Assembly: GCA_945871065.1 (NCBI GenBank)
Contig: CAMBUL010000009.1
Span: forward strand, 1-49,693
DNA: 49,693 nt
Direction: 5' to 3'
DNA from: Chthoniobacter flavus
Lineage (GTDB): Bacteria > Verrucomicrobiota > Verrucomicrobiia > Chthoniobacterales > JACTMZ01
Part shown: positions 909 to 49,693 of the stretch, piece after piece
Position numbering within the stretch: position 1 is the first letter of the stretch
How the letters are laid out: each line of letters begins with the position of its first letter
The notes under the pieces: model-generated
Told to the model about the DNA's origin: nothing
Database searches by the model: none
Seen by the model: only the letters and a program-made list of their open reading frames with translations
Position numbers and translations under genes: made by a program

Positions 909-958
909 AATATTTCTTTGCGCACGCGGGAACCCCGCTTTCCCTCACAACAATTTCC

Positions 959-11193: not shown

Positions 11194-11224
11194 GGCCGGT
11201 GCGGTGGTGCGGCCCGCCGCCGGC

Positions 11225-20600: not shown

Positions 20601-23600
20601 CCTCTGCGCCGGGCGCGGTGGTTGTTTCGGCCGGGACACTCAATTCTTGGGGTTACGGGAGCCTTTTGGTCGGCGGACAACGCAGCGAAAACAACTCCAC
20701 TGTCTCGGTCGAGGTGCGCAGTCCGCAGGTCACCCTCGACGCGCCGGGGGGCGCACTTACCGGCGCGGACATCACCTTGGCTGGACGTGAAACGGTGAAC
20801 ATTTCGTCCGGAGCAGCAATGAGAGCGGAGGGAACCATTGGCGGCGCGGCGCAAAATCTGCAATTCGGTACCGATGGTGCCTTGGTGCGGGTTAGCACCG
20901 ATGCCGGTGCGGCCATTACGCGCCGCGGACAACCCGCCGGAACCAGTCAGAAAGTGACAATTGCGGCCGGCGCTTCGCTGGCCGGGAAAGGTGTGATCAT
21001 CGACTCCACTTATGCCGCCGATCTCGACGGCTCGCTCGACGTGCAGGCCGGCACCCTTACGCTAGGCAGCGGCCAGATCAGCCTTTTGCTCGACGGCAGT
21101 GCTCCTGCGCTTACCGGCAGCGTGGTGACCGACCACTTGGTTCTTGAAGGCGATCTCCTCCAGCGCGCCTCCCAATCGGACCTTCTCCGCCTGCTCAGCT
21201 ACCGGACGATCGATCTCTACGGCGATGGCACGCTGGGTAGCGGAGAGTTGGCGCGTCTTGAATTGCTCGCTTCCGGCTTGCGCGGCTACGGCGCCAGTGC
21301 AGCCGGCGCGGTGATCCGGGCCGGGGATGTTTATTTCGCCCGGCCCAATGCCGGGATGACCGATCTGTCGGGTCCCGCTGCCCCCTCCGGCCGTCTCTCG
21401 GTCCAAGGCTCCCGCTTGCTGTTGGGTCCGGGCCAACTCTCGGTGGGAGGCTATGACAAATTTGACGTAACGGTGGCCGGTGGCGTTCGGGCCCAGGCCG
21501 GAGGTTCCCTTTCGTTGGGAGGCCATGCCACCTTCAACGCCCCGGCGCTCGTCGGGGGGCAGGGGGTGAGCTATAAGATCACCGCCGCCGGCGATTTGGA
21601 TTTTCGGCGTGGTGGCTTGTCCACGGTGGCCGCGGGATTGGGTGTGCGCATGAATTTGCAAGGTGCGGCGGTTAATCTGGCCTCCGACATTCTGCTTCCT
21701 TCGGGTGTGCTTTCCGTCACTGCCACCACCGGTGATATCAATGTCTCCGGACGTCTCGCCGCCAACGGCCAAGCCCGCGAGTTTTTCGATGTCACGCGTT
21801 ACACGGATGGCGGGTCGATTGATCTGACCGCGCGTCAAGGCAGCGTGCGACTGTTGGCGGGCAGCGATGTATCGGTCGCGGCGCATGTTGCTGGGGGTGA
21901 GGCCGGGTATTTAACCGTGCGTTCGCCGGGCGGCGTCTTCGATATCGCCGGTACTTTGGACGGCTCAGCCGGGCTGGGGCGCGCCAGCGGAAGCTTTGCT
22001 CTTGATGCCGGTTCGGTGGCCGATTTTGACGCCTTGAGGACCGATCTCGACAACGCCGGATTTTTCCAAAAGCGCAACCTGCGTGTCCGTTCGGGCGATG
22101 TCACCGTCGCCGGCACCACCCGCGTGCGCGACTATGCGCTCTCGGCCGATGCGGGCGACATCACGGTGACCGGGACGATTGACGCCTCGGGCGAAACCGG
22201 TGGCCGGATTTCTTTGGTCACGAGTCGCAACCTCACCCTGGCCGACGGCTCGGTGCTCACTGTGGCGGCGGAAAAATTCAGCAATGCGGGCAAAGGCGGT
22301 CATATTTCCCTCGAGGCGGGCAGCGCGATCAACGGCGTGGCCAACACGGCAGCGCTTCTCGATCTTCGCTCAGGCTCCCGCATTGATCTTTCGGTCGCCG
22401 AATACGTTGCCGGAGCCTACACCACGCCCGGCTCCAGCGCCTTTTACGGCCAATTCGAAGGCACCTTGCATCTGCGCGCGCCACGCGTGGGGAGCGATGT
22501 CCGCCTTGCCGCCATTGGCAGCACTATCGAAGGCGGGTCCTCCATCTTGGCGGAAGCTTTCCGTGTTTATCAACCGGCCGGCGGCGTGATGAACCGTGCT
22601 TTACGGGATGGGATTAATGCGGACAATGCAGCCTTCATCAACGCGGGAGAAGCAGCCATCACGTCGCGTTTGCTCGCGGCCGCCCCGGACCTCGCTGACA
22701 TCTTCGTTCTCGCGCCAGGAGTGGAGGTTGCTCATGCGGCCGGTGATTTGACCCTCGGACTGGCCAATGTGACTGGCACGACCAACATCGAAGGCCTGTC
22801 CGATGCCGACTGGGATTTGTCCGCCTGGCGCTACGGTTCGCGTCAAGCTCCCGGCGTCCTCACCCTGCGCGCAGCGGGCGATCTGATCTTCAACAACGCG
22901 CTAAGTGACGGGTTTGCGCCGATCAGCAAAGGCATCGCGGCCAATTACGCCGATCGCGGCCACTCCTTGCTCTGGCTGGCACCTTTGCAGTCCGTTAGCG
23001 GTAACCTGCCGGTCAATACGCAATCGTGGAGCTATCGTCTGGCTTCGGGCGCTGATTTGGCCGCGGCTGATTTCCGGACCAATCTCGGGCTGGAAGCTTT
23101 GGATGCCATCCTACCCGGCAAGGGTTCAGTTTTGGTGGGTGAGTTTTTTGCCACGGCGGTGCCGAACACCACGACCTCGGGAACCGGTGCCGGCGTTGGG
23201 CGTGATGGTCAGACCGCAGACACCATCCGCATCAACAATGCCTCCAACAACAACGATCGTGGCACCCGCTACGAGGTCATCCGCACCGGGACCGGAAGCA
23301 TAGAGGTGGCGGCAGGCCGCGATGTTCAACTGCGCAATCCGTTCGCCACCATTTACACGGCTGGGGTCGGACATGCAGATCACACCGCTGTTTTCGTGTC
23401 TGGGGATTTTACTCCTCCTTTAACCACTCCGTCCAGGCACCCCGATCAAGGCGGAACTCTTGGTGCAGTGCAGCAAAATTACCAAACTTATTACGCCATG
23501 GCTGGTGGAGATTTGCGTCTGGCGTCTGGTCGTGACATTGGTCGCTTCGCCCGCCTTGGTGATGGCACCGTTGTGGCTGATTCCTCGAGGCAACTGCCGA

Positions 23601-26353
23601 CGCAGTGGCTTTACCGACGTGGACTGGTTGATCCCGCATCTGGTCTCTTCGCTCGGGTTGCCTCCTCTGGTTTTGGCGCTTTCACGGATCATTCTGCCTC
23701 CACTACATGGTGGGTGGATTACAGCAACTTCTTCCAAGGTTTCGGTGCTCTCGGGGGTGGCAATATCCTGATGAAGGCGTCACGTGATCTGGTCAATGCC
23801 GACGCTGCCATTCCAACTTCGGCCCGCATGTCCGGACAAGATGCGGCGAGTGGAGATTCCGCCGCGACGCGCCAGAATCTCGCTCCCGATGAAGCCAATC
23901 TTCTGGAGTATGGCGGTGGTGATTTGGTGGTTCGTGCCGGGCGCAATCTCGACGGAGGAAACTATTATGTTGAACGCGGCGAAGCGTCACTACGGGCTCT
24001 TGACGAAATCACCACCAACGAGGCCCGTTCGCTTACTCCCTGGCGTTTGACTTCGAGTCAAAGTTTGCTCGATCCTTCGACGTGGCAGGCGGTCACGCTT
24101 TTCGGTGGACGCACCCAATTAGACGTGGCGGCACGCGGAGATGTCTTGCTGGGACCGGCCACTGCAGCCTTCCTGTTGCCCCAAGGCTTGAACAACAAAT
24201 TCTGGTATAAAACGCAGTTCCAGACAATCGACCCCTCGGCTGGCTTGTCGGCGGCGTCTTTCGGCGGTGCGGTGACCCATCGTTTGGGGGTAACCTTGCC
24301 GGGCGACACTTTGGCCTTGCCGGTTTTGGAGGCGGTTTATCGTCAGGGTTCCGCCATTTCTCCGGGTTCGGCGGCGTATTATCGTCCGTGGTTGCGTTCC
24401 GCAGAAGCCGGCACTGGTAATTATCGTACTGTGGCTTCCGTGGGACTGCCCTCGTTAAGCAGTACGGCATTCGGCGGGGATGTCACGGTGGTCGGGCAAC
24501 TCAATCTTTTTCCTTCCCCGCAAGGCGAGTTGGAGCTTCTGGCCTCGGGCGCCATCCCAGGACTGGCCGTGTCCGGCGTCACGCGCACCACCCTAAGCGG
24601 TACCACAGTTAGTGTTAACGCCTGGACCTCGACCCGGCTCAACCTTTCCGACGCCGATGCTTCGCGGATACCGAATGCCTTGACTCCGCTCGGGTTCCAG
24701 CAAGTGACCGGCAGTGAGAACTTCCAGACTCTGGCCAGTTCCTCGTTAAGCCCCTGGTCCTTTGTCAACCCCATGTTCCTCGAAACCGGTGCTTACAAAG
24801 GCGTTTACGGCACCACAGATGTCAAATCGGCCCTCCATGCCGCCGCACCCGTTCAGACAGGAAATCCGAACCCAGTACGTCTTTATGCTGCCGGTGGCGA
24901 CTTGGCCAACCTGACCCTTTTCGCCCCCAAACAAATCCGTGCCGTGGCTTCCCGGGACATCACGGACATCGCCTTTTATGTGCAGCATACAACGTCCTCG
25001 GATATTTCCTTGATCTCGGCTGGTCGGGATTTTATCCCGTTCAACGAAAATGCGCCGCTGCGCGTGCTGGGTGAAAATCCGGCAGTGGGCAATCTCATCG
25101 TTGACCCTGAGTCCGACACCGTGGTGTTTGGGGCGGGAGGCATTCCCGTGCGGACCAAAGCTCTGGCCGGCGACATCCAGATCGGAGGACAAGGGATCAT
25201 GGAGGTTTTGGCCGGTCGCGATATTGACTTCGGCTCCGGGGCGAACTTCGTCGATGGCACGGGCGTTGGAGTCACCAGTATCGGCCGGCTCCGCAATCCG
25301 TCTCTACCTTTCGAGGGCGCGCATTACATGGTCATGGCTGGGGTGGGGGGAGTTTCGTCAGGTCCGGCTTTGGGGCTGACCGGGAGTTCGCTCGCCCTCG
25401 GAAACCTGTCGGCGACCGGATTTTTGGGCGACTCGGCGGAACATCAAGCCGTAGCAACGGTGCGCGGCTTGTTTGATCGTTTGAAACAAGTCGGCAAGGA
25501 GGCCGCGCAGACCGGTAACTATGACGCGGGCTACGCTGCGGTCGAGGCCGTCTTCGGCCGAGACCCTGCGGCGGGAAGCATCTTCACCCGGGCCCGCGAT
25601 CTGCGCACCACTTCGGGCGGATCGATCATCGCTGCCGCACCGGGTGGGGGCATCACCATGGCTTCCGACATTTTCGGCAACCCGCTCACGCCGCCGGGTA
25701 TCGTCACCGAATACGGTGGCGAAGTTTCCCTTCTAACCGGCGGCAATATCGATATCGGGCGCGCGCGTATTTTCACCCTGCGGGGCGGCGACCTGACCAT
25801 CTGGTCGTCGCGCGGCGACATTGCGGCGGGCACGGCGGCCAAGACCGTGGTCACGGCTCCGCCGACTCGCGTGCTCATCGATGCGATCAGCGCCGAGATC
25901 GAAACGGACTTAGGTGGTTTGGCCACGGGTGGTGGTATTGGCGTGTTGGCTTCCGTAGCCGGTGTCGAGCCAGGCGCAGTCACCTTGCTGGCCCCGCGCG
26001 GCACAGTCGATGCGGGTGATGCCGGTATTCGTGCCACTGGCAATATTACCATTGCGGCCGCGCAGGTGCTTAATGCCGACAACATCGCGTCAGGCGGTGC
26101 TTCGGTCGGTGTGCCTGTCTCCGCGGTTGCGGCCGCTCCCAATGTGGCGGGCCTGAGTGCCGCCTCCTCAAGCACCGCGGCCACCACGGCGGCGGCCTCC
26201 GATGTGGCCCAGCAAGGCCGTCCCGATACAACGTCCGCCCAAGAGTCGCCGTCCACCGTTTCGGTCGAGGTGTTGGGCTACGGCGGGGGCGAAGAGCGCG
26301 AAGACGAGCGGGAAGCTCGCGTTACGGGTGAAGCGGGCGATGCGGTTCTTTGA
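14654..26353 (+). CDS. Giant TpsA / filamentous haemagglutinin-type exoprotein with DUF3739-like C-terminus
   Basis: The 3899-residue product is a two-partner-secretion adhesin. Residues 1-~43 form an extended signal peptide (basic RHRGLIRAAQKR then LIAVGLVLTLTSPTYAG). The TPS secretion domain spans ~110-260, with NVGRDTTVNFDQ and NRNGVIFGGTSQINTRGFVASSL, a variant of the NPNGI motif. A very long beta-helix of ~20-residue repeats (SGGxI, VDGSI, LDASG) follows. About residues 1705-1757 a segment with W, YNAGDLVSYGGSTWSA and LFWFKV resembles a CBM5/12 chitin-binding module. From ~2850 on, motifs such as STTWWVDYSNFFQG, GGGNILMKASRDLVN, RIFTLRGGDLTIWSSRG and DAGDAGIRATGN match DUF3739. A TpsB-type transporter at the right end is the likely exporter. 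A repeated palindrome lies upstream and a repeat element downstream. Confidence 0.95.
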   Translation: MGLHLHCYQRHRGLIRAAQKRSSLNGLIAVGLVLTLTSPTYAGRNVFGAGGASAGNRDAVRAQAYADSQANALRVQAAARERLARSTQAFQGMQGAQAAARASAAALNNVANGLVPGGLEVLAGSEARWDGADAPAATGNSVNIKQNSAQAVLHWKTFNVGRDTTVNFDQSQGGADAGKWIAFNKVFDPAAAPSQIRGRINAQGQVYIINRNGVIFGGTSQINTRGFVASSLPVNDNLVRDGLLNNKDAQFIFSGLRVPGGSDGTPAFEPPVLAPGEKYGDIVVERGARLQATAGQDGNGGRVMLVGANVFNDGTIDTPAGQTILAAGLQVGVRAHPENDPSLRGLDVWIGQVGDYAGTAVNSGLVQSSTGSIVMAGKEVKQRGVLASTTSVNLNGRIDLLASYGAVGNPNFDRFAGSTQPPFLSQFTGTVEMAAGSATSILPDANGKKLPGSRLSENSQVNLEGRSIHFGPGSVLIAPSGDVSVRAGLWPFVDSDGDGTVLGIGGSDQQGLSQHFTSGGQKFLSEGGQVYFDEGSIIDVSGSVNGFVPLAQHLLMVQMRSSELADSPLQRNSALRGVPLIVDLRETGVDSGRSWVGTPLGDLTGYLSIIERDIAQLTARGGTVSVSAGDSIVLGSGASIDVSGGLLTHGAGYVRTSMLSLGGRAVPISSAYADINYDGVYTGTRTVTSKWRATQTYSAGIFNPAKGYNQDSYFEGAPAGTVSLSAPSVALNGKLVGKTYIGPNQQETPPALGSLRLAFLGEKNAGSLTAPIFVNHAPFAPEFRLVNGRTPAVSLPRFELVDGEPVALPQSLRETFTLGTAVFEEEDGGFGNLMVENADGDFVVPAGTSLRLRPGGGLEVAAKNVRIDGSITAPGGSVALTAYNFSPYLYAELSATGALALQPAPAVQAGRGTVALRPGSVIDVAGMMVDDRFAGEGHAFNGVLTDGGSIRLEGYAVQLPAGSVLDASGGVYGHGADDYDFGRGGDIAVLSGRDPDLATSTGGELLLAGTLQAFGGSSGGSLTLQSNFLHLGGSAVPPGGLNLSPGFFQSGGFSSYHLVGLGGRDDSGQNRPSIVVAGDIRPQAQSLIYQPGGKGGDFGSRVLGADAFVPVLPEFAGERQPVSLSLAATGFDDGFTEDKIEALGLVDILAGARIATEAGAAVSLRGDVVRVDGSILAPGGSISLVGRSSYRLSPVESQTVSSAQPTLEIGSTARLSAAGLSVALPDQNGLRAGKLLPGGSIVLSGNIVADSGSVFDLRGSSAVFDFSPQRLGLPPNDPRNPFRVVLGLPARVDSDGGRLTLAGSQMLYSDATLLGAAGGPSALGGSLAVSSGRFYASGADRSGADLNMVVTQSGRAADFQAGEGATGMGYFAIDRFSAGGFANLDLGYFYLPDASPIPYGGNVDFRGDVAVRAPGQLRLAGGGVIKADGNVSLHAASITAGQPYQAPLNPSDPYQPFRRFDGGTGSTPQLFVAPTSGTGSLTASASHIDAGNLVLGGIGSASLAANGGDLRGYGSVNMAGDLTVQAARIYPTTLGNFDLFAYDNSLSGAPGSITVLSSGAAGAPLSAGGNLRLMAASIDQGGTLRAPLGSITLGWDGSGAAPANAATGAAAALPATANLVLGAASTTSVSADGLTIPFGLTPNGLSWIDPRGVDVTAGGLPQRSVTLSAGNVVTASGSVIDVGGGGDLLAYRWVPGIGGSSDLLGVADQSWSSGSDYNAGDLVSYGGSTWSARVDIDPSDYAIAPEPEEGLFWFKVSDSFAVLPGVGDRVAALGSFNTGINSGALGGDPGYVASGLRVGEQVYLAGIPGLASGYHTLLPRRYALLPGAFLVTPEEGKITGSGTVISSKDPSLNRGDFLTPELVRMEDGSYLANGWSRNGLNPAAAVHSVQTRFEVLPREVMAARAQYDIYGANRFLAAAAQRLDLPSVQRLPQDAARLSVHGNTGLDLAGTVLARSTAVAGRAAEIDLSSLAAIHIAGPGATASAPGAVVVSAGTLNSWGYGSLLVGGQRSENNSTVSVEVRSPQVTLDAPGGALTGADITLAGRETVNISSGAAMRAEGTIGGAAQNLQFGTDGALVRVSTDAGAAITRRGQPAGTSQKVTIAAGASLAGKGVIIDSTYAADLDGSLDVQAGTLTLGSGQISLLLDGSAPALTGSVVTDHLVLEGDLLQRASQSDLLRLLSYRTIDLYGDGTLGSGELARLELLASGLRGYGASAAGAVIRAGDVYFARPNAGMTDLSGPAAPSGRLSVQGSRLLLGPGQLSVGGYDKFDVTVAGGVRAQAGGSLSLGGHATFNAPALVGGQGVSYKITAAGDLDFRRGGLSTVAAGLGVRMNLQGAAVNLASDILLPSGVLSVTATTGDINVSGRLAANGQAREFFDVTRYTDGGSIDLTARQGSVRLLAGSDVSVAAHVAGGEAGYLTVRSPGGVFDIAGTLDGSAGLGRASGSFALDAGSVADFDALRTDLDNAGFFQKRNLRVRSGDVTVAGTTRVRDYALSADAGDITVTGTIDASGETGGRISLVTSRNLTLADGSVLTVAAEKFSNAGKGGHISLEAGSAINGVANTAALLDLRSGSRIDLSVAEYVAGAYTTPGSSAFYGQFEGTLHLRAPRVGSDVRLAAIGSTIEGGSSILAEAFRVYQPAGGVMNRALRDGINADNAAFINAGEAAITSRLLAAAPDLADIFVLAPGVEVAHAAGDLTLGLANVTGTTNIEGLSDADWDLSAWRYGSRQAPGVLTLRAAGDLIFNNALSDGFAPISKGIAANYADRGHSLLWLAPLQSVSGNLPVNTQSWSYRLASGADLAAADFRTNLGLEALDAILPGKGSVLVGEFFATAVPNTTTSGTGAGVGRDGQTADTIRINNASNNNDRGTRYEVIRTGTGSIEVAAGRDVQLRNPFATIYTAGVGHADHTAVFVSGDFTPPLTTPSRHPDQGGTLGAVQQNYQTYYAMAGGDLRLASGRDIGRFARLGDGTVVADSSRQLPTQWLYRRGLVDPASGLFARVASSGFGAFTDHSASTTWWVDYSNFFQGFGALGGGNILMKASRDLVNADAAIPTSARMSGQDAASGDSAATRQNLAPDEANLLEYGGGDLVVRAGRNLDGGNYYVERGEASLRALDEITTNEARSLTPWRLTSSQSLLDPSTWQAVTLFGGRTQLDVAARGDVLLGPATAAFLLPQGLNNKFWYKTQFQTIDPSAGLSAASFGGAVTHRLGVTLPGDTLALPVLEAVYRQGSAISPGSAAYYRPWLRSAEAGTGNYRTVASVGLPSLSSTAFGGDVTVVGQLNLFPSPQGELELLASGAIPGLAVSGVTRTTLSGTTVSVNAWTSTRLNLSDADASRIPNALTPLGFQQVTGSENFQTLASSSLSPWSFVNPMFLETGAYKGVYGTTDVKSALHAAAPVQTGNPNPVRLYAAGGDLANLTLFAPKQIRAVASRDITDIAFYVQHTTSSDISLISAGRDFIPFNENAPLRVLGENPAVGNLIVDPESDTVVFGAGGIPVRTKALAGDIQIGGQGIMEVLAGRDIDFGSGANFVDGTGVGVTSIGRLRNPSLPFEGAHYMVMAGVGGVSSGPALGLTGSSLALGNLSATGFLGDSAEHQAVATVRGLFDRLKQVGKEAAQTGNYDAGYAAVEAVFGRDPAAGSIFTRARDLRTTSGGSIIAAAPGGGITMASDIFGNPLTPPGIVTEYGGEVSLLTGGNIDIGRARIFTLRGGDLTIWSSRGDIAAGTAAKTVVTAPPTRVLIDAISAEIETDLGGLATGGGIGVLASVAGVEPGAVTLLAPRGTVDAGDAGIRATGNITIAAAQVLNADNIASGGASVGVPVSAVAAAPNVAGLSAASSSTAATTAAASDVAQQGRPDTTSAQESPSTVSVEVLGYGGGEEREDEREARVTGEAGDAVL

Positions 26354-40117: not shown

Positions 40118-40176
40118 CGCTGTTTTGTTCGGCCGAAGGTTTCACCTTTCTCCGTACGGGTCGGAAAGATCGCAGT

Positions 40177-40194
40177 GGTGAAATTTTCGTCACA
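40177..40194 (-). promoter_or_regulatory. TGTGA-N8-TCACA palindrome, copy 10
   Basis: In gene orientation the site reads TGTGACGAAAATTTCACC: an exact left arm, one mismatch on the right and an 8-base spacer. It lies 59 bp before TPR paralogue A, so that gene is probably transcribed on its own rather than from paralogue B. Confidence 0.6.
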
Positions 40195-40336
40195 TCACGT
40201 CAAGAGGCAGTTTCTTTCAGCTCGAGGGCACTTGGGGGCCATTTCAGTGACTGCGACGCTCTTTCATCGCCTGCCTGACCTCCGTCTCTTCGCCCCACGT
40301 CGCACCGAGGTGCTGCGGCCTACGGGAACCGATTTT

Positions 40337-41479
40337 TCAAAACTCCTCGGCGAGTCCGGGCCTTGCGCGGTAGGGGGCGAATGCGGGGTCGGCGATGAGG
40401 TAGTTGTAAAGCTCGGGCTTCAGGCGTTCGCGCGCCTTTTTGAGCAGACGGATGATTGAGGCGTAATCTTCCTGTCGCATGGCGACATAGGCCGCACCGA
40501 AGAGACTGGCAGTGTTTTTGTCCGGATCGAGGTTGGTTGGAAGCAATTCGGTGGGCTTTTGCTCCAGCTCGATAAGCAGGAGGGTTGTATCGACCGTGAC
40601 AGCGGGGTCCACGGGTTGCAGCCTGAGCCGGGCGGAGGCGAGCATGGCGAGGGCGGCCTCGCGTTCGCCGCGCGCCCGCATCTGCATGCCCAAGTCCAAC
40701 CGCGGGGCCGGGTTGGCTTGGTCGGCGGCGATGGCCTGGCGAAGGAGGGATTCGACCCTCTCAGCCCGTTGGTCCGCGCTGCGCTCCGGACCAAGTCCGC
40801 GCTCCAAATTTTCCCATGTCGCGCCGAGCGCGTAAGCGTCGGAGGCTTTTTCCGCGGAGCGTTGCGCCAGCGCTATTTCCTGCGCGGCTGCCCTGAGATT
40901 CCCGCCCTGCAAAGCAGCGAGGGCGGTCAGGTAGGAGATGGAACTAAGGCGCGGGTTGGCCGCGCGCAGGGCATAGAGAATTTGGAAGGCGGCCGGCACT
41001 TTATTTTGCCGGATCAAGCTTAGGGCTTGATTGATCGCTTTTTCCTCCGCGTCGCTGGCCGCGACGAAGGTTTCGGGTGTATCGGCGGGAGGCGGTTCCG
41101 GCCGGTTTTCGCGCCGCATGCCGATGGCCAGTCCAAGAGCGAAGGAGAGCCCGATGGAGAGGATCCAAACGGCGCGCCAGACCAAGACACCGCCACGCTT
41201 CTTCCGCGCGGACGGTGCGTTCCGGGCAAGGCCTGAGGGCTGGCCGGGGGAAAGGGGCGATTTTCGCTCACGGGCGATCCGCTCGGTGTCTTGGTAGTCG
41301 GAAGCAGGCTTCCAGGCTTGCGCGGGCCGCGTGGGGAGGGAAAGCACGCTCCTTGCGCTCGCCCCGCCGGCCTTTTGGGCCGCTTGCCATCCGGCGGGCC
41401 GGATAGGCACCGGCGTTGCCGCGGGGGGCTGTGCCCGATCCGCACCTGGTTCCGGGGGCCGATCGATTTCTTCGCTCAT
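40337..41479 (-). CDS. TPR-like single-span membrane protein, paralogue B
   Basis: The 380-residue product has a ~95-residue Pro/Ala/Arg-rich cytoplasmic N-terminus, one helix (LVWRAVWILSIGLSFALGLAIGM), then helical repeats: AINQALSLIRQNKVPAAFQIL, YLTALAALQGGNLRAAAQEIAL, LLRQAIAADQANPAPRLDLGM. It ends in PELYNYLIADPAFAPYRARP-GLAEEF. It is a tandem paralogue of the downstream gene. Between it and the PpiC gene is a 232-bp gap with an operator-like palindrome 108 bp upstream of the ATG. The function is unknown; a periplasmic scaffold for the neighbouring TonB/TpsB set is a guess. Confidence 0.75.
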   Translation of the reverse strand: MSEEIDRPPEPGADRAQPPAATPVPIRPAGWQAAQKAGGASARSVLSLPTRPAQAWKPASDYQDTERIARERKSPLSPGQPSGLARNAPSARKKRGGVLVWRAVWILSIGLSFALGLAIGMRRENRPEPPPADTPETFVAASDAEEKAINQALSLIRQNKVPAAFQILYALRAANPRLSSISYLTALAALQGGNLRAAAQEIALAQRSAEKASDAYALGATWENLERGLGPERSADQRAERVESLLRQAIAADQANPAPRLDLGMQMRARGEREAALAMLASARLRLQPVDPAVTVDTTLLLIELEQKPTELLPTNLDPDKNTASLFGAAYVAMRQEDYASIIRLLKKARERLKPELYNYLIADPAFAPYRARPGLAEEF

Positions 41480-41711: not shown

Positions 41712-42587
41712 TCACTTCAGGGCGTCGAGGGCGAGCTCGTTGACCGAAACGGGCTGGCGCTGCAGGAGGTTGGCGACGTGCGATTCGCGGTTGAGGGCGG
41801 CGCGCTGGTTGCGCAAGAGGGTGGCAATTTCGCCTTTCACCTCGTCAAGCGGCGCGGGACCGGCTTCGCGCACATCTTGCAGCAAAATGAGATGAAACCC
41901 GGCCCGGCCTTCGACCGGAGCGGAGATCTGACCCTTGGAGAGTCCGGTCACCGCGGTGCGGATTTCGGGGGTGATTTCGGCCTCGGCCAGCCAGCCCAGT
42001 TCCCCGCCGCGAGCGGCGGAGGCCGCATCGTTGCTGTTGGCTTTGGCCAAGGCGGCGAACTCGCCCGGTTTGCCTTTCAAGGTGTCGGCAATTTCCTGCG
42101 CCCGCTTGCGCGCCGCGTTTTTGTCCCCATCGTCGGCGATGAATATTTGGGAGAGCTGGTAACGGCGGGGGAGTTGCAAACGTTCTTTTTCTGCCGCGTA
42201 AACTTTCGCGATCTCCTCCTTGGAAGGATAGCCCTCCGGGACTTTGCTCACTTCGGCGAGGTAACTTTCGACCACATATTGGTCGCGGAGCCGCGCGAGG
42301 CCGGTGATGGTCTGCGGCTTTTTGTCCCAACCGGCCCCGGCGGCATCTTGCAAGACGGCGTTGTTGACCAGGACCGAGCGGACGAAGCGGATCAGGGTGG
42401 CTTTGTCCCCGGTCAGCGCGGTGCGGTCGGCGGCCGGGAGTGCCTCCAAATACGGGCGGACTTCGGAGGCTTTGACTTCGCGCTCGCCGATTTTGGCCAC
42501 CACGGCGTCGTCGGCTTGGAGGGGAGAACCGGGGCCGAAGGCGGCCATGGCTAGGGTAAGGAGAGAGAGCATCGGTGGGTTTTTCAT
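41712..42587 (-). CDS. Periplasmic PpiC/parvulin-type peptidyl-prolyl isomerase, SurA-like
   Basis: The 291-residue product has a signal peptide (LSLLTLAMAAFGPGSPLQA), an N-terminal helical chaperone-like part (VRSVLVNNAVLQDAAGAGW, ARLRDQYVVESYLAEV) and a parvulin domain ~145-240. The parvulin motifs are YQLSQIFIADDGDKNAARKR, FAALAKANSNDAASAARGGE-LGWL and GQISAPVEGRAGFHLILLQ. Such proteins aid folding of outer-membrane proteins. As the last gene of the operon with TpsB and a porin, a chaperone role for those barrels is plausible. The start overlaps the coiled-coil gene's stop by four bases. Confidence 0.9.
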   Translation of the reverse strand: MKNPPMLSLLTLAMAAFGPGSPLQADDAVVAKIGEREVKASEVRPYLEALPAADRTALTGDKATLIRFVRSVLVNNAVLQDAAGAGWDKKPQTITGLARLRDQYVVESYLAEVSKVPEGYPSKEEIAKVYAAEKERLQLPRRYQLSQIFIADDGDKNAARKRAQEIADTLKGKPGEFAALAKANSNDAASAARGGELGWLAEAEITPEIRTAVTGLSKGQISAPVEGRAGFHLILLQDVREAGPAPLDEVKGEIATLLRNQRAALNRESHVANLLQRQPVSVNELALDALK

Positions 42588-43252
42588 GGGTTAGAAGGGG
42601 CAGGTGCCGGGGTCGTTGCGGGAGGCGACGGTGGGCTGGGCAGGCCGGTCGCCCGGACCCGCGTTTCGAGATCTTGCATGATGGTCTGGAGAGCGGCACG
42701 GTTCACACTGATGAAGGGTTCGCGGGACAGCATGGTGCGGCCGAGGCTGTGCGCGGCGTAGCGGTCGAGGATTTCGTCGGCCAGATTTTTCATCTCGGCC
42801 AGCCGGACTTGTTGCTCGGCCACGGCGCGCTCCAGAACGATAATGCGGCCCTTCGCTTTGGCCAGCTCGTGCTCCGACTTGCGGGCCCGTTCGGTCAGGG
42901 CGCGGTAATCTTTTTCCCACTTGGCCACTTGCGCGCCGAGCGCGAGGGCTTTGTCTTCAATCTGCGTCATGGCGGCACGCAGTTCGGCCGTTTGGTTGGC
43001 CGCGTTGTTGCGCTCGTCCACCAACTGCGCCTGCACCGCGGCAGTTTCCTTTTTGGCTTTGGCCGCCGCCATTTCCGCCTGCACGGCCGTGCCTTCCATT
43101 TCCGCTGTTTTGGCCTGCGCCTCGCGCAACTGGAGCATGGTATTGCGCAGAGCTTCCCTCAACTGGGCTTCGACGGCACCTTCTTCCTCGGCTGCGAGGG
43201 GAAAGGGGGAGAGGACCAGCAGGAGCAGAAACAAGGCAATGGCACGCATCAT
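42584..43252 (-). CDS. Exported coiled-coil protein, function unknown
   Basis: The 222-residue product has a signal peptide (RAIALFLLLLVLSPFPLAA), then a continuous coiled coil of ~140 residues rich in Ala, Glu, Lys and Gln (LREALRNTMLQLREAQAKTAE, NQTAELRAAMTQIEDKALAL, RIIVLERAVAEQQVRLAEM). A short C-terminal part ends in a Pro/Ser tail. It resembles periplasmic YbgF/CpoB N-terminal or OmpH/Skp-like coiled coils in layout only. It lies 5 bp after the porin gene and overlaps the ppiC gene, so it belongs to the same operon. A spacer or holdase between membranes is an inference. Confidence 0.75.
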   Translation of the reverse strand: MMRAIALFLLLLVLSPFPLAAEEEGAVEAQLREALRNTMLQLREAQAKTAEMEGTAVQAEMAAAKAKKETAAVQAQLVDERNNAANQTAELRAAMTQIEDKALALGAQVAKWEKDYRALTERARKSEHELAKAKGRIIVLERAVAEQQVRLAEMKNLADEILDRYAAHSLGRTMLSREPFISVNRAALQTIMQDLETRVRATGLPSPPSPPATTPAPAPSNP

Positions 43253-43257
43253 AGAGG

Positions 43258-45465
43258 CTAAAATTTGGCTCCCAGATCAACCTGGAAAATATTCATGTCA
43301 TATTGCGGTCCGGCAATGCTTTCCGAGCCATACCAGCGGAGGCCGAGGTAAACCTGCGGGGAGAGGGCGACCCGGCCCGCCAAGGTGAAGCCCTTCATGT
43401 TGGTGCCGCCCAGCCCGAAGTCCGAATCGTTGAAGCCGTCGACCACCGCATCGGAACCGACATAACGGTAGCCGAAGGAAAGCTGCCAGGCGCCCAGCTT
43501 GTCGAGTTCGGCATGGCCGGCTTCGATGTCGACCAGCCACGCATTGGGGTCGCCCTCATAGGTGCCGTCACTCTCCAGATTGTCATCGACGCTGAGGTTG
43601 TTGACCGCCACCTCGTTGATCGCCGACGAGTTGAAGGCGAGATTGCTCACGAATTCGCCGATCAAGGAAACGGTGATGGGATCCCAGCCATCGTAGCTGA
43701 GCTTGCCGGTGAAGGCCAAATTTTGGAACGGGGTGGCCAGTCCGAAATACTGGTAATCCATGAGCAGCTCGGACGAACCCGGCGGCGGAACAACGTTACG
43801 CAGCGTGCGGTAGGTGTTACCCTTTTGCGCGAAGGACGGACGGCTGTTGTCGGTATCGCCGGCGTCATCCTCGGAATACTGGGTGTAGGGCGAGGAAAAT
43901 TTTCCTTCGATATTGTAGAACGAGTAATAGGCCGCGGCGACCTGCGTGCTCCAATTGCGGGTGATGTTAACTTGGGTGCCACTCTGGATGGCGAAGAGGT
44001 ATTTGTCATAACTCGGATACTTCTCCGCCTGGTTCGAGGAGAAGTTCAGGTCGGTGTTGAAGACCGGGAACGCGCCCGCCACGACCGAGGGAAGGAAGAC
44101 GTCATTGTAGTTGTAGGTCAGGCGCAGGGCCGCACCGTCGAAGCCGAGGTCGTTGTCGAAAATGATCGGGGTGGAAAAGAAAGGATTGTCGAAGCGTCCG
44201 ACCCAGAGAGTCGCCCCGGCTCCGCCCCCCGGTTGACCCGGACCGACCATGGAGTAGGGGGCTCCTACGGCAAGCAACCCGGTCTCAGGCCCGCCGCCCC
44301 CGATGTCGTAGCGGATGTAGGCGCGGTCGAGCCAGATGGCGTATTTGCTGAATTGGCCCCCTTGGCCTTGATTGGCCAGACCCATCGACTGGTTGGCTGT
44401 GACCGGGGAGTTGTTGTCGCCCGTGGCCATGCGGAGGCCGGCGCTGAAGTTGTCACCTAGTTCGATGCCCGTGCCGAGGCGGACGAGCATGCGGTAGCGG
44501 TTGCGGTTCTGATCGGTGTTCCATTGCGGCGGCGGGCTCAGGGCGAGAGCAGACGGCAAAATGTTGATCGGCGAACCGGTGTTGATCGCATTGAAATTCA
44601 CGAAAGCATTCTGTCCGTCGAAATTGTTCGAAGGATAAAGATCCGCTTCGTAGCGGAAGCGGATTTCACCCTCGGGCTTGAGTTGGGCGAGGAGAGCGGG
44701 GAGTCCGGGGGGCGCCCGCTCGGGGCCGCCGATGGAGACACCTGCGGCGGCCAGTTCCCGGCGAATGTCGGCCACCAACTGTTCGCGCACGGGGGCGGGG
44801 ATGTGGCTGACGCTCACGTCCGATTCCATTTCGCGCCGCGAGGCGTCGACCGCGCTCATGCCGGTTTGTTCGGCCAGTGCCTGGTCGGTCATGGTCTGGA
44901 CGGCGGCGATTTGCGCGATGGCAAACATGTCCGACTCGTTTTGCACTTTTTGGGTTTCGGCTTCGGCCTGGGCCTGGGTGATCATGCCGCGAGCGTCGCC
45001 CGCGGTGAGCACGCCCCGCTCGACCAGTTTGTTGATCAGGTTGATCACCACATTGCCGGTCGGCGTGGTGGCGATACTCTGACCGGCAGCCGGTGGTTCC
45101 TCCGGGGTTACCGCGGCGGAAGTCGCATTGTTCCCCGCGGTGGCTGCCGTGGCGGCCAAGGGAGCGGTATCCTCCTTGGCATAAGGCTCGACAGTCCAAG
45201 TGGGAAGCTCCGGCTCGACAGCAGGGGCCAGGGGAGAGGTTTCGATGGGCACCGCGGCAATTTCGACCGCGGTCGCCTCCAAGATTTCGGCCGAAGGCCC
45301 CTCTTCGAGGGCCGGACTCTCCGCCGCGGGGACCACCGGGGCCGAAGGAAGCGCCACCTCGGCCGGTGGGACGGCTTCGAGCGGGCCCGCCGGTTGCGCG
45401 GCGCGGCACCAAGCGCCCGCGAGGACGAGGGCGGCCAGGATGGTCTGGAAAAAGAGACGGTTCAT
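43258..45465 (-). CDS. Large outer-membrane porin with N-terminal periplasmic extension
   Basis: The 735-residue product has a signal peptide (LFFQTILAALVLAGAWCRA), a Pro/Ala/Glu-rich linker to ~145, a helical region with LINKLVERGVLTAGDARGMI and an EQLVADIRRELA stretch. From ~275 on, a beta-barrel follows: GEIRFRYEADLYPSNNFDGQ, RNRYRMLVRLGTGIELGDNF, SAGLRMATGDNNSPV, to MNIFQVDLGAKF at the end. This fits the 'putative porin' family (PF16930-like). The N-terminal helices could touch the periplasm or cell wall. It is cotranscribed with tonB (4-base overlap), so a substrate channel linked to this system is possible. The substrate is unknown. Confidence 0.85.
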   Translation of the reverse strand: MNRLFFQTILAALVLAGAWCRAAQPAGPLEAVPPAEVALPSAPVVPAAESPALEEGPSAEILEATAVEIAAVPIETSPLAPAVEPELPTWTVEPYAKEDTAPLAATAATAGNNATSAAVTPEEPPAAGQSIATTPTGNVVINLINKLVERGVLTAGDARGMITQAQAEAETQKVQNESDMFAIAQIAAVQTMTDQALAEQTGMSAVDASRREMESDVSVSHIPAPVREQLVADIRRELAAAGVSIGGPERAPPGLPALLAQLKPEGEIRFRYEADLYPSNNFDGQNAFVNFNAINTGSPINILPSALALSPPPQWNTDQNRNRYRMLVRLGTGIELGDNFSAGLRMATGDNNSPVTANQSMGLANQGQGGQFSKYAIWLDRAYIRYDIGGGGPETGLLAVGAPYSMVGPGQPGGGAGATLWVGRFDNPFFSTPIIFDNDLGFDGAALRLTYNYNDVFLPSVVAGAFPVFNTDLNFSSNQAEKYPSYDKYLFAIQSGTQVNITRNWSTQVAAAYYSFYNIEGKFSSPYTQYSEDDAGDTDNSRPSFAQKGNTYRTLRNVVPPPGSSELLMDYQYFGLATPFQNLAFTGKLSYDGWDPITVSLIGEFVSNLAFNSSAINEVAVNNLSVDDNLESDGTYEGDPNAWLVDIEAGHAELDKLGAWQLSFGYRYVGSDAVVDGFNDSDFGLGGTNMKGFTLAGRVALSPQVYLGLRWYGSESIAGPQYDMNIFQVDLGAKF

Positions 45466-46172
45466 GGTCGCGAGGTATTGATCCGCATGACGATCGGCAT
45501 GGGCATATCATCCGGCGGCGGATCGGGCAATTGGGCGCCGTTGAGAATTTCGGATTCGATGGCACGGTCAATGGCCGGATCCCCCGAGGATCCTTCGATG
45601 GAAGCACGGGTCACCCGCCCCGTGCGATCGACCCAGATGCGCGCTTTGACCGTCATGCGCGAGGTGCGCGTCAGTTTGTGATTACGCACGGCAGCCGATA
45701 CCGCGTTCTGCACCCTCCCGGCATACCATCCGAACCGCGTGCCGGCTCCGCCACCTTGACCGCGGCTGCCGATCATGCCGCCGCCGCCTTTTCCGACCAG
45801 ACCGAAGCCATCGGGGGCGCCGTCTCCTTGGATATTGGAGCCCATCGGCTCGGGCGCATCGGGTGCTGCCTCCGGCTCGGGCGGTGAATCCGGCGCAGCC
45901 TCTTCGACAAACTCGGGCGCATCGGGCGGAGGCTCGGCTTGTTCGGGCGGTGGTGGCGGCGGGGTGGGTGCCGGGGGCGGGGGCGGCGGCAGCACCGGCA
46001 TGACATTGACCACGCTGGTTGTCTTCTTTTTCGGTTTGCTTTCACCGCCGAGGAAAAAGAAAGCCCCTGCGGCCACGGCCAGGAATGCGGCCCCGAGACC
46101 GACGATCAGGAAGACGGGCGACCTTTTGTTTCCGGTCTCGGGGGAGCCGGAGGTTGGAGGCAAGCTGGCCAT
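45462..46172 (-). CDS. tonB: TonB energy transducer
   Basis: The 236-residue product has one N-terminal helix (SPVFLIVGLGAAFLAVAAGAF), a long Pro-rich spacer (VLPPPPPPAPTPPPPPPEQA, then Asp/Glu/Pro), a Gly-rich hinge (GKGGGGMIGSRGQGGG) and a C-terminal TonB domain ~150-236 with VQNAVSAAVRNHKL, TVKARIWVDRTGRVTRASI and AIDRAIESEILNGAQLPDPP. It carries energy from ExbB/ExbD across the periplasm to an outer-membrane receptor. No TonB-dependent receptor with a plug is in the window. The cotranscribed porin or TpsB are therefore unusual candidate partners. Confidence 0.93.
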   Translation of the reverse strand: MASLPPTSGSPETGNKRSPVFLIVGLGAAFLAVAAGAFFFLGGESKPKKKTTSVVNVMPVLPPPPPPAPTPPPPPPEQAEPPPDAPEFVEEAAPDSPPEPEAAPDAPEPMGSNIQGDGAPDGFGLVGKGGGGMIGSRGQGGGAGTRFGWYAGRVQNAVSAAVRNHKLTRTSRMTVKARIWVDRTGRVTRASIEGSSGDPAIDRAIESEILNGAQLPDPPPDDMPMPIVMRINTSRP

Positions 46173-46176
46173 GGTC

Positions 46177-46584
46177 TTATTGATCCGGGGCCACCGTGGC
46201 CAGACCGACTTGAGTGATGCCGAGGCGCCCGCAAACGTCGATCACGTTCATCACACCCTCGTACTGGGTTTGGCGGTCGCCGCGCACCACCACGGGAAAT
46301 TCCGGCACGCTCGCTTTGTGCGCTTTGAGTCGCGCCTCCAGCTCGGCCAAGGTCACGGGCACGGTATCGAGGGCGATCTGGCCTTGGTTGTTCACCGTGA
46401 TGGCCCGGCTTTTTGGTCCGCTCAAGTCGGCGGGCTTGCTCGAGGATTTCGGCAGATCAACCTTCACGCCCTGCACTCCGGCCGTGGTCATAATGATAAA
46501 AATGAGGAGAAGCACGAGGTAGAGGTCCACCATCGGCGTGACGTTGATGTCGTCGTAACTCTTGTCGTCTCCTCCGGCGTCCAT
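46177..46584 (-). CDS. exbD: ExbD/TolR-family proton channel subunit
   Basis: The 135-residue product has a short cytoplasmic start, one helix VTPMVDLYLVLLLIFIIMTT carrying the essential Asp (D20), then a periplasmic domain (VKVDLPKSSSKPADL, ALDTVPVTLAELEARLKAHK, VVVRGDRQTQYEGVMNVIDV). With ExbB it forms the proton-driven motor that powers TonB. Gaps of 3-4 bp to both neighbours show one operon. TolR is the alternative, but tonB is adjacent. Confidence 0.93.
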   Translation of the reverse strand: MDAGGDDKSYDDINVTPMVDLYLVLLLIFIIMTTAGVQGVKVDLPKSSSKPADLSGPKSRAITVNNQGQIALDTVPVTLAELEARLKAHKASVPEFPVVVRGDRQTQYEGVMNVIDVCGRLGITQVGLATVAPDQ

Positions 46585-46587
46585 GGG

Positions 46588-48522
46588 TCAGTTCAGGTTG
46601 GCCACGGCGGGCTCGTTTGAGGGCGGGGCGAAGCGGGGGGGCAGGCCCTCTCCGGGCGGCGGATAAGCTTCGGCCATTTTGGTCACAAATTCGTCGATGA
46701 AGACCTGCATCGAGGAGATCACGTCTTTGATCCGCGAGCTGAGGACGCTGTACATGAAAAGGGCCGGGATGGCCACGAAGAGGCCCACCGTGGTGGCCAG
46801 CAGAGCGCTGGCAATACCCGGCGCGATCGAGTTGACATCCACCTCGCCCGACTTGGCGATGATGGCGAAGGTGATCATGACGCCAACCACCGTGCCGAGC
46901 AGGCCGACGTAAGGGCCGCCGGCGATGCTTGTGGTCAGAATAACCAGACCTTTGTTCAGCCGCTGCCGCTCCCGAACCAAGCCGGCGTCGAGCGAGGCGC
47001 GGATGGCTTGAATTGAACGCACCGACAACCCGCGGTGGCGGTCCGGGCCGGAGATGCGGTGCCGGATCTCCTTAACCCCGAGGTGATACAAGTGGTAGCA
47101 GGGAGAATCGAGCATTCCCTGGATGCCTGCTTTTTGCTTGGTCGCTCCCTTGGCCTCCATGGCTTCCATTCGCAGGTTGGTCAGGGAGTCCGGGTCATCG
47201 GCATCCAGCACCGTCAAGTCGCCGGAGACTTCGCCCCACTGGCGGAGGAACTCGCTGTCGCCTTTCATCAAGGCGCGCAGGCGGATGAATTTGGCCACCG
47301 CAACCGACCATCCCATGATCATCATGATCACGCAGACCACCACGGCGATCCATCCGTCGAACATCATGTTGTTGGCGATGTCGCCGAAGAGCATGACGTG
47401 TTCGAGCGCACCGCCATGGCCTTCATCGGAACCGCCGCCTTCCAACTCGGCGAAACTCAAGACCTTGCTGGCCGCCTCGCTACCCGACTGGTTGATACTC
47501 ATGAGGCGCAAGTCCGGCGCGGAAAGGGCCGCGCGATAGACTTGCAACTCGTCGAATTCTCCGAGGAACCGTCCTTCGCTCGAAACGGCCGGATCGGGCC
47601 CGCCAAGGAAGATCGGACCATCACCGGCCGGCAACGGCACGGCCAGCGCACCGACCTCGCGCCCGTCGAGGTAGAGGGTCATTTTGCCGCTGTTCGCGGT
47701 GACCGCGATTTGGCGCCAAGTCGCGGCGGACAAAGTTTCCACGGCCACCGCGCGGGGTTGGCCGTCGACTTCGAGGAATGGTGCGCCGCCGGCGGCGAGG
47801 CCCAAGCGGAAATTTCCGGCGCCCGGGCGGGTGAAAAGAATGGCCTCGTTCGCCGTGGCGATCGGCTTGACCCAGAAAATGAGCGTGAGGCTGGCGTCCG
47901 CACTCCACGCATTAGCCGCCGAACCGGGAATGGACACCGGGTCGCGTCCGACCAGGCGCAAGCCGTCGGCCACGATGGTGCCTTCGGAAATGCTCCCGGC
48001 GCTTCCGGCATGCGAGGCGTTGGCCGTGGCATCCTGGGGCGGGGTGCCTCGTTCGTTGAGGTGGTAAACGAAGGCCGCGTTATCGGGGTAGGTTTTGGCC
48101 TGGTCGGGAGCGCCCTCGGCCTCGGGCGCGGCATTGCCGTAGTAGAGGAAAAATTCGGCGGCCCCTTTTTCTCCACCGGCCGGGACTCTGACCCAAGCGA
48201 AACCCTCCGCCATGAGCGGATCGAATTTTTCGAGGTGGAAGGGCAGGACTTGTCCATCGGCGGCGACGAAGCGGAGGTCGCTGCCATCAGGCTGTACGAG
48301 GTCGAAGGGCAGGTTGCCCGGATGCAGGCGCACGAGCACCACGGTCTCGCCCGTCTCGCCCCCGATCTCGGCTCCCTCGGCCGCGGGGTCGAGGGTGAAC
48401 TTGGTCCGCCCGGTCCACTCCTCTTTCCACCAATCGGGCGCGGCGGCCGAGACCGTTGCAGCGAGGGTCAACCCGGCAAGCATCAGGGCGAGACAACGGA
48501 GGATGAAGGGGTGCGATTTCAT
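46588..48522 (-). CDS. ExbB/MotA-type motor protein fused to DUF2341 and LamG-like domains
   Basis: The 644-residue product has a signal peptide (LRCLALMLAGLTLAATVSA). Residues ~30-150 have the DUF2341 pattern: WWKEEWTGRTKFTLD, FAWVRVPAGGEKGAAEFFLY-YGN. Residues ~190-335 are LamG/concanavalin-like (LIFWVKPI, WRQIAVTANSGKMTLYLDG, GEFDELQVYRAAL). After a helix at ~375-397 (GWIAVVVCVIMMIMGWSVAV) comes the ExbB/TolQ core with GPYVGLLGTVVGVMITFAII and GIASALLATTVGLFVAIPAL. ATG 48522 gives the signal peptide and sits 1 bp after the TpsB stop; longer frames have none. The periplasmic domains are an addition to ordinary ExbB and may bind glycans or protein. Confidence 0.9.
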   Translation of the reverse strand: MKSHPFILRCLALMLAGLTLAATVSAAAPDWWKEEWTGRTKFTLDPAAEGAEIGGETGETVVLVRLHPGNLPFDLVQPDGSDLRFVAADGQVLPFHLEKFDPLMAEGFAWVRVPAGGEKGAAEFFLYYGNAAPEAEGAPDQAKTYPDNAAFVYHLNERGTPPQDATANASHAGSAGSISEGTIVADGLRLVGRDPVSIPGSAANAWSADASLTLIFWVKPIATANEAILFTRPGAGNFRLGLAAGGAPFLEVDGQPRAVAVETLSAATWRQIAVTANSGKMTLYLDGREVGALAVPLPAGDGPIFLGGPDPAVSSEGRFLGEFDELQVYRAALSAPDLRLMSINQSGSEAASKVLSFAELEGGGSDEGHGGALEHVMLFGDIANNMMFDGWIAVVVCVIMMIMGWSVAVAKFIRLRALMKGDSEFLRQWGEVSGDLTVLDADDPDSLTNLRMEAMEAKGATKQKAGIQGMLDSPCYHLYHLGVKEIRHRISGPDRHRGLSVRSIQAIRASLDAGLVRERQRLNKGLVILTTSIAGGPYVGLLGTVVGVMITFAIIAKSGEVDVNSIAPGIASALLATTVGLFVAIPALFMYSVLSSRIKDVISSMQVFIDEFVTKMAEAYPPPGEGLPPRFAPPSNEPAVANLN

Positions 48523-48523
48523 A

Positions 48524-49693
48524 TTAAAATTCCGCCCAAACGCGGAAAACAAGCATCGGGCTGCCGGCCGGTCGGTAGCTATCCGCCTCGGTCGAGCCTT
48601 GCGAGATTTGCGGAATTCCAACGTAGACCGCACTATTGAGCCAGTCCATGAATGTGGCCAGCGCCCCGAAGCCAACGCTGAGCAGGTTGAAGTTGGTGGT
48701 CTGTTCGGGCAACGGGTCATTGATGTAAACGGAACCGGCATCGAGGAAGCCGAGCAGGCGGACTTCGTGTCGGTCGTTTTTGATCCACCAGCGCAGGAGC
48801 GAAGGGGAGCGGACTTCCAATGTGCCGGCGATGGCGCTGTCGCCCACCGCTTGGGATTCGAGGTAGCCGCGCACCGTGGTGAGGCCGCCGACGGAAAATT
48901 GCTCGCTGTCGACCAAGGCATTGTCGGTGGCCTGGCCTTGGAGCAGCGCTTTGACTTGGAAGTCCTGCCAGAGGTCGTGCTCGTAGCTGGCCAGGCCGCG
49001 AAAGTAAAAATAGTTGCCGTTGGCCGAGTAACGCCGGTTGTCGAATTCAACCTCCCCGCTGCCCGTCCCGCGGAAATGCCAGTTGAAGGACCCGTCGAAT
49101 TGGAAGCGGTAATCCTTGCCCATCCAGAAGCCATTGTAGCTGAGCAGGAAGGGGTAATAGGTGACCGGCGAGGAGTCGATCACCACGTTGTTGACGGACA
49201 GCGACTGCTCAAAATTCTTGTAATCCATCCCGAAGGTGAGGTTGTGAAACATGCCGGTGTGGCGGGTGGGCAACTCGGCGATGAGGCGTCCGCCATAGAT
49301 CTCGCCGTTGCCGGTCGAAGCGCTGCCGCCGAGGGTCGAGACGTCGCTGTTCTGACGGATGGCTTGCGCCATGAGGGAGAGCCACTCCACGCGCGGTACT
49401 GGGGCGAGGTAGTAACCGGAGTAGACGAGGGCATCGTCGGCGTCCTGCGGCGCGACCTGGAATGCCGCGCCGATGGTGTGGCCGAACTGCCAGAGGTTGT
49501 CGTAGCGCAAAGAGGCGTCAAGGCGCAGCGGGGTGGTGTTGGCGCTGTAGCGGTTGTTCAACTCCACGCTGCCGTGGAGGGGAAAGGAATCTTCCACCAC
49601 CAGCTCCACGTCAACCGAGCCCGGCATGGCGCCGGGCTTGAATTCCGGTGTGACCCGCAGATCGGCGCGCCGGTTGAGGCGGATAACGTCCTT
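48524..49693 (-). CDS. TpsB outer-membrane transporter (FhaC/ShlB family), 5' end missing
   Basis: The 389 visible residues continue past the right edge of the window. The first residues (LNRRADLRVTPEFKPGAMPG, SVDVELVVEDSFPLHGSVEL) are the end of the second POTRA domain. A 16-strand barrel follows, including the TpsB signature EQFSVGGLTTVRGYLES in the loop-6 region, and the final strand SPMLVFRVWAEF. It would secrete a TpsA protein, and the FHA-type protein at 14654 is the only TPS substrate in the window. It heads (or continues) an operon with exbB, exbD and tonB. Confidence 0.92.
   Translation of the reverse strand, partial: KDVIRLNRRADLRVTPEFKPGAMPGSVDVELVVEDSFPLHGSVELNNRYSANTTPLRLDASLRYDNLWQFGHTIGAAFQVAPQDADDALVYSGYYLAPVPRVEWLSLMAQAIRQNSDVSTLGGSASTGNGEIYGGRLIAELPTRHTGMFHNLTFGMDYKNFEQSLSVNNVVIDSSPVTYYPFLLSYNGFWMGKDYRFQFDGSFNWHFRGTGSGEVEFDNRRYSANGNYFYFRGLASYEHDLWQDFQVKALLQGQATDNALVDSEQFSVGGLTTVRGYLESQAVGDSAIAGTLEVRSPSLLRWWIKNDRHEVRLLGFLDAGSVYINDPLPEQTTNFNLLSVGFGALATFMDWLNSAVYVGIPQISQGSTEADSYRPAGSPMLVFRVWAEF

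Follow-up and report, generated by a model that had tools for sequence, protein, structure and literature searches.

The window, that is the whole stretch of DNA analysed, is one entire contig of 49,693 bp. The source genome is 2.53 Mb in 120 contigs and 95% complete, and its closest named relatives are environmental Verrucomicrobiota, several of which are labelled Chthoniobacter. Seven minus-strand genes run to the end of the contig in the order TpsB-ExbB-ExbD-TonB-porin-coiled coil-PpiC, and the gene for a giant TpsA lies elsewhere in the window. The features are as follows.

14654..26353, plus strand: TpsA, 3899 aa, the probable exported substrate, with an N-terminal TPS domain and DUF3739 near the C-terminus
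41712..42587, minus strand: PpiC-type peptidyl-prolyl isomerase with a signal peptide (Pfam Rotamase 2e-22)
42584..43252, minus strand: secreted coiled-coil protein with a conserved C-terminal EPF segment
43258..45465, minus strand: Porin_5 barrel with an N-terminal proline-rich and helical periplasmic extension (Pfam Porin_5 2.3e-155)
45462..46172, minus strand: TonB-family force transducer, 236 aa (Pfam TonB_2 7.8e-12)
46177..46584, minus strand: ExbD/TolR-like protein, 135 aa (Pfam ExbD 8e-28)
46588..48522, minus strand: ExbB/TolQ-like proton channel, 644 aa (Pfam MotA_ExbB 8e-29)
48524..49693, minus strand: TpsB, an outer-membrane transporter of the ShlB/FhaC family, C-terminal 389 residues (Pfam ShlB 4.5e-17)

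The spacing of the seven genes ranges from -4 to +5 bp (TpsB-ExbB 1, ExbB-ExbD 3, ExbD-TonB 4, TonB-porin -4, porin-coiled coil 5 and coiled coil-PpiC -4 bp). An earlier note on this DNA had described seven tight genes at 41712-49693, and the positions, the strand and the gaps of at most 5 bp all match. Because the window stops at the contig end, TpsB is present only as its last 389 residues. The TPR genes at 39062-41479 were rejected as members of the system, since 232 bp separate PpiC from the next gene downstream and a homologue of the first of them, TPRa, is intact where the operon has decayed. The earlier note had also credited the operon with folding helpers. PpiC has the Rotamase domain, but the coiled-coil protein is not recognizable as a folding helper; Pfam gave nothing specific for it and the PDB matches were limited to generic coiled coils. 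PpiC itself is an accessory member; it is found in 47 surveyed loci as compared with 75 that have the coiled coil, and many relatives are without it.

The 3899-residue TpsA proved to be real. It carries the N-terminal TPS secretion domain that defines the substrates of two-partner secretion (type Vb), with a match to PF05860 of 1.7e-20 and a match to DUF3739 of 4e-30. This is the one TPS domain found in the genome, in which TpsB also has a single match. TpsA is encoded 15 kb away from the operon on the opposite strand in the window; a same-strand TpsA follows the operon in 50 of the 64 loci that have sequence past the coiled-coil gene (a few duplicates are counted). Full-length relatives of TpsB have a signal peptide, two POTRA domains and a 16-strand barrel. 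The VRGY motif of TpsB proteins is present, and its RGY is invariant in 88 sequences. In the model of a relative that is 97% identical, the two POTRA domains and the 16-strand barrel are seen and the closest matches are CdiB and FhaC. The H1 plug helix and long linker of FhaC, which are not universal for TPS, are absent from this model. Only about 10-14 residues lie between the core of the signal peptide and POTRA1 in several members. The mature N-terminus is short and variable in the alignment of relatives, with only about ten residues in some species, which leaves TpsB with no conserved TonB box and often no space for an H1 helix.

The proteins of the motor have the features expected of an intact system. 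Both channel threonines of ExbB are invariant (81 of 81 sequences), as is the membrane aspartate of ExbD, D20 (77 of 77), and with these channel residues in place the motor looks functional. ExbB has an unusual architecture in which, by Pfam, a periplasmic DUF2341 and a laminin-G-like domain precede the channel. A stator-superfamily survey from 2025 lists DUF2341 as a domain appended at the N-terminus whose function is unknown (PMC12505986). TonB has a single membrane helix, a proline-rich spacer and a TonB C-terminal domain, with TIGR01352 over the cut-off; a search of the PDB gave no solved structure related to it. A crude test for the histidine of the E. coli SHLS motif took the 21 residues of highest hydrophobicity in each of 68 TonB sequences; 7 of them have a histidine within this segment, and there is often one just before it.

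The conservation of the operon was surveyed with TpsB alone, as aligned full-length relatives, as the bait against 84,980 species genomes. TpsB relatives are encoded by 393 stretches, and the best 80 of these 393 were kept and combined with relatives from whole genomes to give 89 distinct loci. Each of the 60 distinct loci that extend 6 kb or more past TpsB has a six-gene core, TpsB-ExbB-ExbD-TonB-porin-coiled coil. The phyla that bear the core are the Verrucomicrobiota, with Chthoniobacter flavus Ellin428, Brevifollis, Prosthecobacter and Akkermansiaceae bins among the named records, and the phylum of the alphaproteobacteria Reyranella, Zavarzinia and Bradyrhizobium. Plasmids of Methylosinus, Klebsiella quasipneumoniae, Cupriavidus, Burkholderia and Aquabacterium also carry it, and beta- and gammaproteobacterial plasmids are among these. 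The Burkholderia copy is unannotated and was detected by homology, and the Aquabacterium copy has two ExbD genes. The DUF2341-ExbB, Porin_5 and the DUF3739 TpsA were all confirmed on the plasmid copies tested. The alphaproteobacterial copies share no more than about 60% identity with the others and do not support recent transfer between phyla. No inner-membrane importer is a member of the core. The survey of gene order proposed in the earlier note thus found that TpsB and TonB stay linked in all informative relatives of whatever phylum, which runs decisively against the refuting condition set in the note, namely that the two are unlinked in relatives. In about nine distant, ordinary TpsB loci of the same phylum, ExbBD, TonB and Porin_5 of the operon type are absent nearby (some of the contigs are short); in L161, one of these loci, a distinct group of ExbB/ExbD/TonB-like genes stands about 5 kb off.

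The genes are also gained and lost together. TpsB and the operon-type ExbB are found in the identical 26 of 57 related genomes (Fisher 8e-17, for genomes that are not independent), and the porin is found in those 26 and in one decayed remnant. The DUF3739 TpsA is present in 23 of the 26 operon-bearing genomes and in none of the 31 others, two of which carry TPS proteins of a different type. The remnant is in a sister species, where a porin fragment (residues 499-623) is fused to PpiC fragments and the TPR gene behind is intact, so that the operon was lost there as a block. The distances of the six proteins correlate over 63 loci, with Mantel r of 0.45-0.78 compared with permuted maxima of 0.10-0.23; this shows common inheritance and not contact. 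It could be supposed that a general-purpose TonB system stands beside a TPS gene by chance, and the nine ExbD-family genes of the window's genome would make this easier to imagine. However, the gene order is kept across phyla, the genes are present and lost jointly, all six proteins diverge in a correlated manner and, as discussed below, there are no receptors for such a system to serve. A chance neighbourhood is therefore hardly credible, and the conserved linkage already refutes it. Linkage in all informative relatives together with joint gain and loss means that the assignment of the motor to the TpsA/TpsB system is well supported.

In the window's genome, this TonB has no detectable ordinary receptor to act on. 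The plug domain PF07715 is absent from the window's genome and from 11 more operon-bearing genomes, and the receptor barrel PF00593 is over the cut-off in none of these 12, while both searches recovered receptors in control genomes. The absence of an ordinary TonB-dependent receptor, which the earlier note had remarked on, thus holds genome-wide. Among the related genomes, the presence of receptors is unrelated to that of the operon (14 of 26 operon-bearing and 20 of 31 operon-free genomes, p = 0.43). Since 12 operon-bearing genomes have no detectable receptor, the operon TonB must serve something else there and, as judged from these genomes, is not a general one serving receptors. The obvious alternative client of the motor is thereby removed. 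A role in tethering or stabilizing the envelope could also be considered, in which the motor, TonB, porin and coiled coil would hold or move the outer membrane in the manner of Tol-Pal for as long as TpsA is at the surface, and would not act on export. The motor core scores nearer to TolQ/TolR than to ExbB/ExbD, and the best PDB match of ExbB is TolQ. The order of motor, transducer, outer-membrane protein and coiled coil also recalls tol-pal. However, a Tol system seems to be present already. In the genus, operon-bearing genomes hold the operon TonB and mostly one additional TonB_2 protein, and most operon-free members hold just one; in the window's genome the second TonB_2 protein adjoins an ExbD gene elsewhere and is probably TolA. 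Envelope tethering also leaves the strict co-occurrence with one class of TpsA unexplained, and we consider it quite improbable.

The porin and the coiled-coil protein are as constant as TpsB and may be the next candidates for contact with TonB. The model of the porin, which has low confidence, has 16 barrel strands, and Pfam found neither the plug PF07715 nor the receptor barrel PF00593 in it. No solved relative of the porin is in the PDB. An N-terminal segment, NxTINLIxxLVxRGxLT, is kept from Verrucomicrobiota to Klebsiella. The earlier note had suggested looking for a TonB box in TpsB and the porin. This search gave no box in TpsB, where the N-terminal segment is unconserved among relatives and the candidate was rejected, and the case for the NxTINLI motif of the porin is weakened by its predicted helical structure in the low-confidence model.

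There is a link to phosphate at some of the loci. Four members of the genus to which the window belongs (L032, L057, L058 and L076) have pstS-pstC-pstA-pstB on the strand of the operon, and the last of these genes stops no more than about 100 bp from TpsB. In these four, phoU is found beyond pstS on the opposite strand, and three of them also have phoB- and phoR-like genes. PhoU and a PhoB-like regulator adjoin TpsB in a further locus, L090. Importer or Pho genes are missing from the surroundings of most other loci, and PstB was searched for in the window's own assembly, which is 95% complete, and not found. In P. aeruginosa, the counterparts of the operon genes are placed in the sigma-VreI regulon, the transcription of which requires PhoB (PMC7035377). 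These two separate links suggest that at least some such systems work in phosphate starvation. They also bear on the main rival to energized export, which is TonB-driven uptake through the porin. TpsB would export TpsA without energy, as HxuB does HxuA, and the porin, energized by TonB and in place of a classical TonB-dependent receptor, would import a solute captured by TpsA, perhaps a phosphorus source. The constancy of the porin, the position of the operon directly behind pstSCAB in four genus members and the phosphate control described for the Pseudomonas locus (PMC7035377) are all consistent with uptake, and HxuABC of Haemophilus influenzae couples TPS with a TonB-dependent receptor (PMC5422565). 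However, a Porin_5 barrel has no plug domain, no TonB box was recognized in it, its conserved N-terminal motif being predicted helical, and importer or Pho genes are absent near most loci. We consider uptake rather unlikely, although it is to be taken seriously.

We lean towards the explanation that, as the genes and their distribution suggest, this is a proton-driven motor dedicated to secreting or handling the giant TpsA at the outer membrane. ExbB and ExbD would form a channel of the TolQR/ExbBD type in the inner membrane, and TonB would span the periplasm and act on the outer-membrane part, which may consist of TpsB, the porin and the coiled-coil protein; PpiC would assist in the periplasm. 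At the outer membrane, TpsA, with its about 3,900 residues, would be pushed, pulled, assembled or released with the aid of the motor. Energized export was one of the proposals of the earlier note. The part of it that attaches the motor to the TPS system stands, by linkage and co-occurrence, whereas for the energizing of export we can only infer that TonB may touch TpsB, the porin or the coiled coil, that the handling of TpsA may need the proton gradient and that TonB may exert force on TpsA. Counting against the dedicated-motor explanation, TpsB has no conserved TonB box, the TonB helix mostly has no SHLS histidine by the crude test, and it is not obvious what the conserved porin would do in export. 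The known TPS systems are also motor-free, and TPS translocation could be reconstituted in vitro with no energy supplied from outside (PMC5422565). More tentatively, the DUF3739 TpsA and the DUF2341-ExbB could mark a branch of type Vb in which the motor drives the passage or surface assembly of an adhesin of ~400 kDa through a complex of TpsB, porin and coiled coil.

The usual teaching is that type V secretion requires neither ATP nor an ion gradient (PMC5422565). In the loci examined, an entire branch of type Vb, present in at least two phyla and on plasmids, is never without a proton motor, and the motor is retained in genomes that have no TonB-dependent receptor. Either energy is supplied to some type Vb systems or an unplugged porin is driven by TonB, and both would be new. 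With this branch, the few known clients of TonB-type motors also gain one that is not a receptor.

Several known systems resemble this operon in part. Classical TPS systems (FhaC/FhaB, CdiB/CdiA) share the TpsB fold and the TPS domain of TpsA. However, they have no motor, whereas the motor, the porin and the coiled coil are constant in the window type and its TpsA carries DUF3739, and in several of its TpsB members the FhaC H1 plug helix would not fit. HxuA/HxuB/HxuC likewise joins a TPS pair with a TonB-linked outer-membrane function in one operon, but HxuC is a plugged receptor and its TonB motor is elsewhere, while the window type has the motor within the operon and no plugged receptor. With Tol-Pal the likeness is in the motor, the subunits of which have their best scores with TolQ and TolR; however, the operon is without TolB or Pal and is linked to TPS genes, and the genome has a separate probable TolA. 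The SiiE system of Salmonella uses type I rather than type Vb export and has no TonB and no TpsB. SiiA/SiiB is nevertheless a precedent for a proton motor of the same superfamily that is tied to secretion of a giant adhesin, and SiiAB is listed under type I secretion (PMC12204202). The FhaC-TolB-like proteins of the same paper were rejected as a lead, as they are barrels with a TolB-type propeller and not this operon. The names exbB2/exbD2/tonB4 used for Sphingobium in one paper refer to a different system.

The closest counterpart is the Pdt locus of P. aeruginosa, given in two papers as pdtA-phdA-pdtB-exbB2-exbD2-tonB4-PA0696-PA0697-PA0698-PA0699, with PA0696 a putative porin, PA0698 a YbjN protein and PA0699 a PpiC protein (PMC2729926, 2009; PMC7035377, 2020). 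The first of these also describes PUMA3 clusters of Pseudomonas, Burkholderia, Rhodopseudomonas and Janthinobacterium with associated TPS, ExbBD and PA0696 homologues (PMC2729926). The locus is reported from the laboratory Pseudomonas strains Pf-5 and Pf01 as well (PMC2729926), and there is a tonB4 insertion mutant of PAO1. The Pdt TonB system is termed uncharacterized, with PA0696-PA0700 having no known function (PMC7035377), and insertions in tpsA, tpsB, tonB4 or PA0696 are reported not to reduce lethality in zebrafish (PMC2729926, PMC7035377). The literature found, in the parts available, contained no test of whether PdtA export needs TonB4, and an earlier PdtA/PdtB study is known through citation only. 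By published annotation, the order TpsB-ExbB-ExbD-TonB-porin-unknown-PpiC is identical in the two, and both have a phosphate link. This likeness is one of gene order and annotation, and homology is bridged by the copies on the plasmids of Klebsiella and other proteobacteria. In the Klebsiella copy the genes, with YbjN, PpiC and a LysR gene among them, are ordered as in P. aeruginosa, and the proteins are homologous to those of the window. The two forms differ in that Pseudomonas, as annotated, has YbjN, PhdA, sigma and anti-sigma genes and TpsA in front, whereas the Verrucomicrobiota core is without YbjN, PhdA and the sigma genes, TpsA is usually last and pstSCAB lies upstream in the window's genus. 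The locus type is thus already on record in Pseudomonas, and the window operon is its Verrucomicrobiota form. What is new here is that the locus extends over different phyla, that its parts co-occur in an all-or-none manner, that it is independent of TonB-dependent receptors and that there is a second link to phosphate.

In four loci of the window's genus (L032, L057, L058 and L076) pstSCAB lies upstream of TpsB on the same strand and ends about 100 bp or less from it. All four have a divergent phoU beside them, and divergent phoB/phoR-like genes are found in three. It may be that the operon shares in the phosphate-starvation response, as this adjacency suggests. The window itself has the following genes on the contig that carries TpsA:

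890-5365, plus strand: PhoD-like phosphatase with a 5'-nucleotidase C-terminal domain, 1491 aa
11225-14400, minus strand: ArsR-family regulator, SBF-family transporter and DUF6428 protein, directly before TpsA

The phosphatase may fit the phosphate theme. Three unknown families also recur near TpsB, in 27, 23 and 12 related loci, and are mostly located upstream (for example in L135, L168 and L082). One consists of secreted proteins that end in a PEP-CTERM-like segment, another of proteins of some 450 aa with a signal peptide, and the third of small membrane proteins.

Four genomes (G031, G037, G043 and G045) each have two or three DUF3739 TpsA matches versus one full operon found, thus one exporter may serve several giant TpsA proteins. 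The window's own genome (2.5 Mb) is without TonB-dependent receptors and has nine ExbD-family genes; judged by this gene count it is furnished with many proton-driven motors. Some 5 kb from a distant TpsB with a 945-aa frame (L161, contig C55 of G344), and on the strand of that gene, lies a separate group of ExbB/ExbD/TonB-like genes. A Porin_5 match is absent from this group, and the two are possibly an independent pairing.

In a sister species (L155, contig C31 of G010) the operon is reduced to a remnant at 8142-8912, in which a porin fragment is fused to broken PpiC fragments, and the TPR gene behind it is intact. The complete system, including a 12 kb TpsA gene, is carried on a 333 kb conjugative plasmid of Klebsiella quasipneumoniae (L173), so it can pass from one enterobacterium to another. 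The Methylosinus locus (L172) is preceded at 10271-13527 by genes for TonB, a protein with a secretin/TonB N-terminal domain, a sigma factor and FecR. These genes ahead of the locus indicate cell-surface signalling of the kind seen in PUMA3 of P. aeruginosa.
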